From NCBI RefSeq assembly GCF_029360725.1, contig NZ_JARKMY010000010.1, positions 310,001 through 374,000 of the forward strand: a stretch of 64,000 nucleotides of DNA, read 5' to 3'. Origin of the DNA: Chryseolinea sp. H1M3-3 (GTDB taxonomy: Bacteria > Bacteroidota > Bacteroidia > Cytophagales > Cyclobacteriaceae). Numbering within the stretch: the stretch's first letter is position 1; every line of letters starts with the position of its first letter. A program made the position numbers and the translations under genes. Below the pieces are notes generated by a model, which was not told where the DNA came from, did no database searches, and saw only the letters and a program-made list of their open reading frames with translations. This document shows positions 18,694 to 21,022 of the stretch, in pieces.

Positions 18694-18729
18694 AAAAAAG
18701 AAGTCTCACCAAAAGGCGAGAACTTCTTA
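18694..18729 (-). terminator. Intrinsic terminator of the rtcB-TPR unit
   Basis: On the minus strand AAGAAGT-T-CTCGCC pairs with GGTGAG-ACTTCTT, closed by a TTTT loop, and is followed by TTTTTATAC. The stop codon of the TPR gene is inside the 5' arm. Confidence 0.8.
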
Positions 18730-19251
18730 CAAGCTAAAAAATAACATTATTCTTTTTTTACGGCATCGCTTGATGCCGGCCACCAGGTTGCTTACCTCGT
18801 ACTCTGCCACTGAAGCAGACATTGCATCCCTGTACACCTTGATTGCCATACGCCAATCTTTACGCAATTCATATGCATAGGCCAGATTCTGGAGCAGTCC
18901 TACCCTATTGCCTTTGGTTTTAATCAACCCCGATTGCGAGCATGCAATGGCATCGCTGTAACGCGCTTGCCTGATGTATAAAGAACCCAGGTGAAGGTAT
19001 GGTGGCGCATAGGTTTCATCGAACAGCACCGCCATTTTCAAGTGGAGCTCTGCACGTGCCTCATCTTCTGTGTAGTAGAGGTATGCCCATCCGAGATCGT
19101 TGTGCAGTCTTCCATAGCCCGGTTCGTCATACAACAGGTTGTTTAACAATGCTAACCCTTCGTCTACAAGACCCTCGAGAATCATACGCTCAGCGTCCAC
19201 CAGGTATTTTTCTATCCAATTAATTTTCATCGTCATTTCAAGTTTAATCAT
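18727..19251 (-). CDS. Tetratricopeptide-repeat protein next to rtcB
   Basis: A 174-residue cytoplasmic protein made almost wholly of TPR helices: LVDEGLALLNNLLYDEPGYGRLHNDLGWAY, then AELHLKMAVLFDETYAPPYLHLGSLY, then YSDAIACSQSGLIKTKGNRVGLLQNLAYAY and WRMAIKVYRDAM. A short hydrophobic tail ends the protein. It begins 49 bases after rtcB in the same direction and ends in a shared terminator, so it is probably cotranscribed. A protein-interaction role in RNA repair is possible but unproven. Start could also be one of the ATGs five to seven codons in. Confidence 0.8.
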   Translation of the reverse strand: MIKLEMTMKINWIEKYLVDAERMILEGLVDEGLALLNNLLYDEPGYGRLHNDLGWAYLYYTEDEARAELHLKMAVLFDETYAPPYLHLGSLYIRQARYSDAIACSQSGLIKTKGNRVGLLQNLAYAYELRKDWRMAIKVYRDAMSASVAEYEVSNLVAGIKRCRKKRIMLFFSL

Positions 19252-19300: not shown

Positions 19301-20716
19301 CTAATCTTCCGTGGCTGTCTTGTCACCACACATCCGCACAATCTTCGGAACAAATGTTCCAACTACTTCCACAAGATCACTTTGATAGTACATCACCTTC
19401 TCGATGTCTTTGTAGGCCATCGGCGCTTCGTCCAATCCACCACCGATCAGATCCACACCATGCTTTATCAATTCCTGCCTCACCATCTTGTTGGTGATGC
19501 TTTGCTTGGCAGCACTTCGTGACATCAATCGTCCCGCACCATGTGACGCAGACTGAAGTGAGTCGGCGCTACCTTTTCCTTTTACAATAAATCCCTGCGT
19601 AGTCATCGAGCCGGGAATGATGCCAAACACTCCTTTGCCCGCTGACGTCGCACCTTTGCGATGTACAATGACTTCGGTGCCATCACCAAAAGTTTCTTTC
19701 CATGCAAAGTTGTGGTGGTTCTCCACACGCAGCAGCGGCTGCTCTCCCAATGCACTGGCTATACGCTCATGAATCTGAAAATGATTTGCCGATGCATAAT
19801 CACCTGCGAGATTCATTGCAAGCCAATATTCCTGGCCGGCTTCAGTATTCAAGTCGAGCCAAGCGAGTTCCGCAGCTTCACGGGGAAGCAGGCATACTTG
19901 TTTTGCTACCCTCGTATAGTGTCTTGCTATCTCAGCACCGAGTCCGCGTGAACCGGAATGTGACAGCACTGCCAGGTAATTACCGGCAGCAAGGCCCCAC
20001 TCATTTTGTACCCCCAATTCAACCAACCCGAATTCAACGAAGTGGTTGCCACTTCCAGAAGATCCGATCTGCATGGCGGCTCTTCCCTGCAGCGGCCGTA
20101 GAACGGTGACCTCTTTGAAGAGACTGCTATCCAAAACTTCATGTTCCTTTGGACGCCTGAACGTTTCCGACCCAAAGCAGGTGTTGTCAAGGAGTATCTG
20201 CTTAAGGCTGCTTCGATTTCGGTCAAGGAAAATTTCATTCAATGGAAATACCGACAGGCTCATACGGCAGCCGATATCAACACCTACACCATACGGGATT
20301 ACCGCATTACGTGTAGCAAGCACTCCACCAATAGGCAATCCATATCCCTGATGCGCATCAGGCATCAACGCACCGCCTACTGTCACTGGCAGCTTCATGG
20401 CAATCTCCATTTGATTGCGTGCGCCTTCTTCAATTCCGCTGGCACCATAAGTACAATATGCGATGCGCGTTTTATTGAGCTCATGCACCAGGGACTTTTT
20501 TTCCGTAGGAATGAGTTCGAGGGCAACGTTACCCCAGATGGAATCGTTGATAAAATTCTTTGGAGCTGCCAACACATTGCGCAGCATGGAATAGATCTCT
20601 TCCTTTTCACTTCTGCGAAAATGTTTGAGAACAGTATTGATAGCGGTCCCAACGGCTCTTCCTTCCGGGTAACCGAGCTTCATGACATCTTTTCCGCTTA
20701 ATATTTTCCTTTTCAT
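19301..20716 (-). CDS. rtcB: RNA-splicing ligase RtcB
   Basis: A 471-residue RtcB-family GTP-dependent ligase that seals RNA 2',3'-cyclic phosphate or 3'-phosphate ends to 5'-OH ends. Key motifs are present: MPDAHQGYG (118-126), GVDIGCRM with Asp147 and Cys150 as Mn ligands, GSGNHFVEFG (221-230), LSHSGSRGLG (251-260), and SHGAGR with the guanylylated His392. An N-terminal extension of about 85 residues precedes the core. It lies downstream of a short leader ORF and terminator (20855-20985) and upstream of a TPR gene. No archease or RtcA gene is in the window. Confidence 0.95.
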   Translation of the reverse strand: MKRKILSGKDVMKLGYPEGRAVGTAINTVLKHFRRSEKEEIYSMLRNVLAAPKNFINDSIWGNVALELIPTEKKSLVHELNKTRIAYCTYGASGIEEGARNQMEIAMKLPVTVGGALMPDAHQGYGLPIGGVLATRNAVIPYGVGVDIGCRMSLSVFPLNEIFLDRNRSSLKQILLDNTCFGSETFRRPKEHEVLDSSLFKEVTVLRPLQGRAAMQIGSSGSGNHFVEFGLVELGVQNEWGLAAGNYLAVLSHSGSRGLGAEIARHYTRVAKQVCLLPREAAELAWLDLNTEAGQEYWLAMNLAGDYASANHFQIHERIASALGEQPLLRVENHHNFAWKETFGDGTEVIVHRKGATSAGKGVFGIIPGSMTTQGFIVKGKGSADSLQSASHGAGRLMSRSAAKQSITNKMVRQELIKHGVDLIGGGLDEAPMAYKDIEKVMYYQSDLVEVVGTFVPKIVRMCGDKTATED

Positions 20717-20739: not shown

Positions 20740-20854
20740 TTTTTGTTTACTGCATGCTATGACGAGTTGCATCCGTTATGATGCTGGTGTCATCAAAGCA
20801 TAGTGATTCCACTCGCTTACGCGACCACTTTTTAAAACATTTATTATCGGGCTA

Positions 20855-20886
20855 TAAATAAAAAACCCGGACATTGCCCGGGCTTT
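20855..20886 (-). terminator. Intrinsic terminator between leader ORF and rtcB
   Basis: On the minus strand CCCGG (with an AAG flank) and CCGGG pair across GCAATGT, followed by TTTTTTATTTAT. It lies about 20 bases after the 25-codon ORF and about 140 bases before rtcB. Confidence 0.8.
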
Positions 20887-20907
20887 CAGTGTCGTATCAG
20901 AAATTGA

Positions 20908-20985
20908 TCAACTGAAAATCCGCGGGGTAAACAGAATATTACGATCCTGTTTGTGACTAAAATTATATGTTGTTTCCTTCAGCAT
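20908..20985 (-). CDS. 25-codon leader ORF or small protein
   Basis: ATG at 20985 to TGA at 20908 encodes 25 residues, beginning MLKETTYNF and ending FTPRIFS. It is not hydrophobic and has no signal peptide. The start codon is only 5 bases beyond a perfect -7 box, so the mRNA would be leaderless or nearly so. An intrinsic terminator follows 20 bases after the stop. The arrangement promoter-ORF-terminator-rtcB looks like an attenuator leader, but a free-standing small protein or sRNA gene is equally consistent. I do not recognise the peptide. Confidence 0.55.
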   Translation of the reverse strand: MLKETTYNFSHKQDRNILFTPRIFS

Positions 20986-20990
20986 GGGCA

Positions 20991-21022
20991 CAAAGGTAGC
21001 GAAGATTGTTTTTGAATTCAAA
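20991..21022 (-). promoter_or_regulatory. Canonical Bacteroidota promoter
   Basis: Reading the minus strand: TTTG (21022-21019), a 20-base spacer, then TACCTTTG (20998-20991). This is an exact match to TTTG-N19-20-TAnnTTTG, the consensus of the Bacteroidota primary sigma factor. It drives the 25-codon ORF at 20985. Confidence 0.85.

Follow-up and report, generated by a model that had tools for sequence, protein, structure and literature searches.

A probable ribosome-mediated transcription attenuator upstream of the rtcB operon in Chryseolinea and its relatives

Attenuators of the trp type control amino-acid operons by means of a leader ORF, a pause hairpin and mutually exclusive 2:3 and 3:4 helices. 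For rtcB, to our knowledge, the sensing of RNA damage and the induction of the gene where RtcR is absent are unsettled in most phyla. In Salmonella, rtcBA depends on RtcR, a protein activator that binds 5' tRNA halves (PMC7790460), and in Anabaena the DNA-binding protein TrcR represses both rtcB and the trn tRNA array (PMC10272220). In Pseudomonas aeruginosa, armZ (PA5471), which has been described as coding for an RtcB-like RNA ligase, stands under the leader peptide PA5471.1 and is induced by loss of the tRNA CCA-adding enzyme (Cca); a 2025 review presents the attenuation mechanism as proposed and needing confirmation (PMC12057347, PMC13041342, PMC3516279). Within Bacteroidota, leader-peptide attenuation has been reported for amino-acid operons of F. 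psychrophilum (PMC9723704) and short ORFs for long 5' UTRs of B. thetaiotaomicron (PMC7366714); the term "rtcb" is absent from the main texts of both reports. The initial annotation of the locus described here knew of no such leader for rtcB. That statement stands for Bacteroidota, where none was found in the open-access literature, outside which most subscription journals lie, but it does not extend to the RtcB-like armZ under its PA5471.1 leader.

The stretch analysed, hereafter the window, comprises 64,000 nt of Chryseolinea sp. H1M3-3 (GCF_029360725.1, contig NZ_JARKMY010000010.1, positions 310,001-374,000). A unit of promoter, short ORF and terminator upstream of rtcB is, with good confidence, a cis-acting ribosome-mediated transcription attenuator of the rtcB(-TPR) operon, and the repair enzyme is probably made mainly when ribosomes stall. 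The in silico evidence covers the parts, their conservation, the alternative folds and the association with the operon; from these we infer pausing, the direction of control and the signal.

The leader and its conservation among relatives

All features lie on the minus strand. The promoter is of Bacteroidota type, TTTG-N20-TACCTTTG (20991..21022; TTTG at 21022-21019, N20, TACCTTTG at 20998-20991), and is identified by its sequence pattern and by the alignment of 20 leaders. Five bases past it, the ATG at 20985-20983 opens a leader ORF of 25 codons plus TGA (20908..20985; stop at 20910-20908), which encodes MLKETTYNFSHKQDRNILFTPRIFS and is recognised by conservation of its frame; to judge from this short distance, the transcript is probably near-leaderless. 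Within the ORF lie an ACATAT motif (20965..20970), which includes the Tyr codon TAT at 20967-20965 and whose ATAT recurs in related leaders (class A, below), and a hairpin, P0 (20929..20952), detected by folding and covariation and proposed to be the pause hairpin. The final codons of the ORF, CCCCGCGGATTTTCAG (20912..20927), constitute region 2, the 5' arm of a predicted antiterminator in which they pair with region 3, CTGAAAGCCCGGGC (20876..20889). By alignment and predicted folds, region 3 is common to this antiterminator and to the intrinsic terminator (region 3:4, 20860..20887), the stem of which (20887-20861; 12 pairs, with a conserved core) begins 20 nt past the leader stop and carries T6 at 20865-20860. 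A spacer element follows (20794..20831), made up of a small hairpin, seen by eye, and then GGAATnnnTTTG, and was recognised in an alignment of 24 spacers. The rtcB gene (19301..20716), with its ATG at 20716, ~144 nt beyond the terminator, encodes an RNA ligase of 471 aa (Pfam RtcB, E 2.6e-84; PDB RtcB chains, E 4e-35). Its probable operon partner encodes a TPR protein (18727..19251; Pfam TPR_7, barely above the cut-off). TPR genes beside pairs of a release-factor homologue and RtcB have already been reported (PMC6514570).

The initial annotation had read an exact promoter, a 25-codon ORF and an intrinsic terminator between 21022 and 20855, with rtcB about 140 bases further on, and all of them are found in those places. 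Taken one by one, the parts carry little weight. A single exact match to the promoter pattern is found in the 64-kb window, where shuffles lead one to expect 2.5, no better than chance alone; terminator-like sites in 5 kb number 7 against 4.7 expected, the leader terminator being the one with most pairs; and the fold of the leader has a z of -2.4 at the window site. The case therefore rests on conservation across relatives.

In a sister species (G004), the promoter-ORF-terminator unit is 81% identical, and the DNA upstream of the promoter differs. The unit recurs ahead of rtcB genes that are 64-84% identical to that of the window, and 20 distinct sequences (class A) were aligned. In four TPR-first genomes (L149, L150, L152, L153), the class A leader precedes the TPR-like gene and is absent directly before rtcB; the leader stays at the start of the operon even where gene order changes. 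Between the TPR-like gene of L149 and the TPR gene that lies after rtcB in the window, identity is 37% (E 4e-30). A covariance model search added L308 and the drifted L309, behind which the rtcB matches are incomplete, bringing class A to 26 distinct leaders before rtcB or TPR-rtcB operons in the RtcB clade of the window. The start codon is ATG in 25 of the 26 and CTG in L308, where P0 has, by eye, grown into a long stem and the frame to the PRIFS-stop is kept. Across the 20 aligned leaders, the T, the A and the TTTG of the -7 box are invariant, and two T's of the -33 box are conserved at 90% or more. At L148 (the rtcB of G091), a lone in-frame TAG stands at codon 127 of an otherwise intact rtcB, and the leader is still present.

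The covariance model (R1) was built from 17 class A leaders and run on 295 family genomes, with filters that drop some weak matches. It scored at least 49 bits in 21 genomes, with exactly one match in each, and in all 21 the match and the first matched rtcB residue downstream of it are 50-664 nt apart; the leaders include 13 training sequences and 8 from outside the model. The next-best match, a terminator that follows an unrelated gene in G095, scores 42.5 bits. Matches of ~38 bits or less were taken as noise, although a few of those at ~30 bits turned out to be related leaders that precede RNA-repair operons (G062, G208 and G000:C1). A search of Rfam gave no match for the leader at the gathering score and nothing credible at a loose threshold.

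The leader frame is open in 20/20 class A leaders, over 25-26 codons, and the alternative frames in 1 of 40 readings; gaps in the ORF alignment are exclusively of 3 nt, and length shifts by whole codons. Codon -4 is CGG 14 times and TGG 6 times, every Arg there being CGG (14/14), codon -2 is TTC (Phe) in all 20, and the stop is UGA in 18, TAA in one and TAG in one. Purifying selection on the peptide was assessed by BLOSUM score in 11 close pairs, which are non-independent and, at 25 codons, of low power: P ranged from 0.03 to 1, with one value below 0.05 and 10 above it. Since the frame is kept and selection on the peptide is not significant, the act of translation seems to outweigh its product; that the leader is translated is itself suggested by frame conservation only. 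The initial annotation had proposed to look in relatives for conservation of the frame, the stop and the terminator: all three are conserved, without clear purifying selection on the peptide. A peptide signal behind the conservation is disfavoured by the codon-level fixation and the close-pair tests. A switch by UGA read-through was also rejected, since in 14 of 20 leaders another stop follows in frame 1-23 codons later, and TAA and TAG stops occur as well.

ATAT is present in 24/24 class A leaders listed and, by eye, absent from L309. It falls within nt 14-28 after the ATG in 52 of 65 collected leaders (50 of these at nt 18-21), a rate biased by the finding of some of the 65 via ATAT itself. 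The motif is read as Thr-Tyr in class A, as His-Ile in class B (below) and in the third frame in one leader (L033), and therefore looks like a nucleotide signal. A position ~20 nt past a start codon is just outside the edge of an initiating ribosome. As candidate control codons, those for Tyr, His, Asn and Asp account for 75 of 300 (codons 3-12 of 30 leaders hand-picked from the 65) against a background of 15.6%, for which ATAT and AT-richness could suffice.

Alternative folds of the leader RNA

P0 shows covariation in 17 sequences, with double (compensatory) changes in 7 of 9 pairs and 86% of cells paired; the observed covariation values were reached by 0-2 of 500 shuffles. The core helix of regions 2 and 3 is 98% paired and nearly invariant, so covariation gives the antiterminator no support. 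By fold prediction, region 2 pairs with the entire 5' arm of the terminator, the core of which, CCCGG:CCGGG, is invariant in 20/20 class A leaders. Predicted energies for 20 leaders, compared without the U-tract, whose pairs would favour the terminator, run from -18.6 to -26.5 kcal/mol for the antiterminator (mean -22.4) and from -15.5 to -23.8 kcal/mol for the terminator state (mean -20.4). By prediction the antiterminator equals or exceeds the terminator state in stability in 17 of 20 leaders, with equality at the window, and the terminator state is the more stable in G004, L058 and L136. If region 2 is taken as covered by a terminating ribosome, the prediction still gives a terminator, at -10.0 kcal/mol. 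While region 4 is still missing from the transcript, the 5' arm of the terminator pairs with upstream sequence at a mean probability of 0.91 in the window and of 0.60-0.92 in 21 leaders, the second of its two terminators being used for L079. In these models, antiterminator and terminator appear to be mutually exclusive and of similar stability. Halves swapped between genomes were as good as native in 717 of 5000 cases with all 20 leaders and in 210 of 5000 with the 14 non-redundant ones, a faint hint of co-evolution between regions 2 and 3. The 3' arm of P0 was also considered as antiterminator in the window and rejected, since by eye no more than a few pairs could form.

How might such a leader work? 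RNA polymerase would initiate at or beside the ATG, and P0 probably pauses it, giving a ribosome time to load. A ribosome reaching the stop codon would cover region 2, upon which the 3:4 terminator would form and transcription would end near 20855. Were translation instead delayed or halted before the last third of the ORF, region 2 would be free to pair with the terminator's 5' arm over its full length; with this antiterminator formed, the terminator could not form and rtcB would be transcribed. Since RtcB repairs broken RNAs, damage to tRNA or ribosomes would thereby induce its own repair, in line with the sensor suggested by the initial annotation.

Leaders of other sequence

A scan for a mini-ORF, a segment complementary to the terminator 5' arm and a terminator was applied to rtcB upstream regions, of which 263 were collected, some present twice because two genome collections were used, and 262 scanned (L123 was left out). 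Its matches numbered 49 in the 262 regions, far beyond chance: 2620 dinucleotide shuffles gave 5 and 262 reverse complements 1. When TANNTTTG was also demanded, the figures were 39/262 against 0/262. Seven of the 49 were judged spurious (L074, L244, L094, L130, L212, L225, L287), and the leaders of L056-L058 are identical to those of L144, L146 and L141. In all but two of the 42 accepted matches, the distance from leader stop to terminator is 20-30 nt. Control genes at the same loci matched in 13 of 280 cases, 7 of them with promoter; six of these seven (L092, L095, L102, L114, L120, L121) are a same-strand gene directly before rtcB and are therefore probably rtcB operons. By group, the scan matched 8 of 20 regions of mostly ~50-56% paralogues, credibly 5 of 45 in a phylum sample, and 3 of 66 in (mainly) the ~57-62% clade, all three judged spurious. 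Six-kb upstream stretches of the latter clade hold candidate leaders further up in 4 of 20 (L327, L328, L331, L333), as do L320, L321 and L326.

The same design in a different sequence is seen ahead of some rtcB operons elsewhere in Bacteroidota: in L059, L079, class B and a Flavobacterium/Sphingobacterium type. Class B belongs to RtcB paralogues ~55% identical (L249-L254, L257-L260, L262, L263, L033 and L034, with L263 recovered by motif search only) and is absent in L255 and L256. Its ORFs have 10-19 codons, and GACCGGG or similar stands opposite its complement in the terminator. Most class B ORFs (L249-L263 upstreams) have a strong Shine-Dalgarno sequence, AAAGGAGG, before the ATG. Such strong sequences are unusual in Bacteroidota. 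The Flavobacterium/Sphingobacterium type places CTTCG in the ORF opposite CGAAG in the terminator, with the motif before the ATG as in class B. L059 carries two leaders in tandem; its rtcB match (L059:3001-4816) spans 1816 nt for 464 query residues and seems to contain an insertion or to be split. In-frame stops in rtcB paralogues were dismissed as C-terminal overshoots in the four examined (L035, L036, L037, L164).

The genome of the window itself has a second leader, L319 (G000:C1:1542721-1542867, minus strand), with MMLVQRHMLEQDFIGHTYEGNCFAWRLRTY, a CATAT motif and a terminator; the genes it precedes encode a 2OG-Fe(II) oxygenase and two RlaP RNA-repair proteins. In L321 and L326 the leader is followed by tRNA genes and then by SPFH, TPR and rtcB. 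Of the 20 six-kb stretches, 12 have same-strand tRNA genes no more than ~5 kb ahead of rtcB, and so have L321 and L326 (in all, L321, L326, L327, L328, L329, L330, L331, L333, L334, L335, L337, L338, L344 and L346); chance expectation is reckoned at ~0.05 per stretch from 34-67 tRNA matches per genome in eight family genomes. A tRNA-Tyr gene is present in 6 of the 12 tRNA-bearing six-kb stretches. In six loci (L321, L326, L327, L328, L331, L333) the candidate leader comes first, then the tRNA genes and then the rtcB operon; in L334, L338 and L346 the tRNA genes are nearer rtcB. Possibly they are spare or decoy tRNAs. A wider claim, which we put forward tentatively and at somewhat less than an even chance, is that leader attenuators sensing ribosome stalling run much of the RNA repair of Bacteroidota across the phylum (rtcB, RlaP, SPFH/TPR partners and spare tRNAs), marked by a frame-independent ATAT just downstream of the initiating ribosome.

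The attenuator, its rivals and the known systems

Is the unit an attenuator or a stand-alone gene? The initial annotation had left the choice between the two, and the in silico evidence (conserved frame, stop and terminator, predicted antiterminator, position at the operon start, promoter-free spacers) favours attenuation. An sRNA or small-protein gene merely adjoining an rtcB that has its own promoter would account for the strong promoter and terminator, for the compactness of the unit (~130 nt) and for a spacer element between the terminator and the first gene. We regard such a gene as unlikely, since each genome has the unit once, invariably at the head of its rtcB operon, gene-order changes included, its peptide is weakly conserved with no clear selection, and the complementarity of regions 2 and 3 is also found in leaders of other sequence. 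Furthermore, the TANNTTTG promoter pattern is absent between terminator and first gene from 24/24 spacers. The spacer element (the small hairpin, by eye, and GGAATnnnTTTG(CC)) is present in most of these spacers and does not match TANNTTTG; it might hide a promoter of another kind.

Slightly less likely again is an attenuator worked by a factor, in which the fold is shifted by the binding of a broken RNA, or of a protein that might be RtcB, to P0 or to the ATAT region. An ATAT that keeps its place near nt 20 while its reading frame varies between leaders resembles a nucleotide signal, and P0 is a constraint at the RNA level, as this would predict, but the class A frame is kept in 26/26 (from CTG in L308; L308 and L309 by eye), and the fixed distance from stop to terminator would be of no consequence unless ribosomes finish there. 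A third rival, arrest by the nascent peptide at the conserved PRIFS end, as in TnaC/ErmCL, seems very improbable: the C-terminal PRIFS or similar of class A and the UGA stop in 18/20 speak for it, whereas the end of the ORF is kept codon by codon, in the manner of an RNA arm, other leader classes have different ends, and a ribosome stalled at PRIFS would mask region 2 and so favour termination.

If ribosome-mediated attenuation is the right reading, the leader needs no regulator protein, translation itself being the damage meter, and rtcB induction in Bacteroidota becomes testable by one reporter. It would be a further, apparently separate answer beside RtcR, TrcR and PA5471.1. The leader resembles trp-type attenuators in its ORF, its proposed pause hairpin and its exclusive 2:3/3:4 helices, and differs from them in having no single-codon run, in its target, RNA repair, and in the overlap of region 2 with the end of the ORF. 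As far as the cited accounts go, RtcR likewise turns on rtcB when tRNAs are broken, but as a protein activator without a leader, and TrcR likewise ties rtcB and extra tRNA genes to translation stress, but as a DNA-binding repressor. By the same accounts, PA5471.1-armZ is the known case nearest in function, and the likeness is one of design. Both have a constitutive promoter, a short leader ORF (13 aa in PA5471.1), a segment 3:4 terminator and an RtcB-family gene downstream (by Pfam and PDB matches in the window), and the read-through upon ribosome stalling described for armZ is what we propose for the window leader. Differently from the latter, PA5471.1 belongs to another phylum, its control codons are Gln3/Phe4, and ArmZ acts on a drug-pump repressor.
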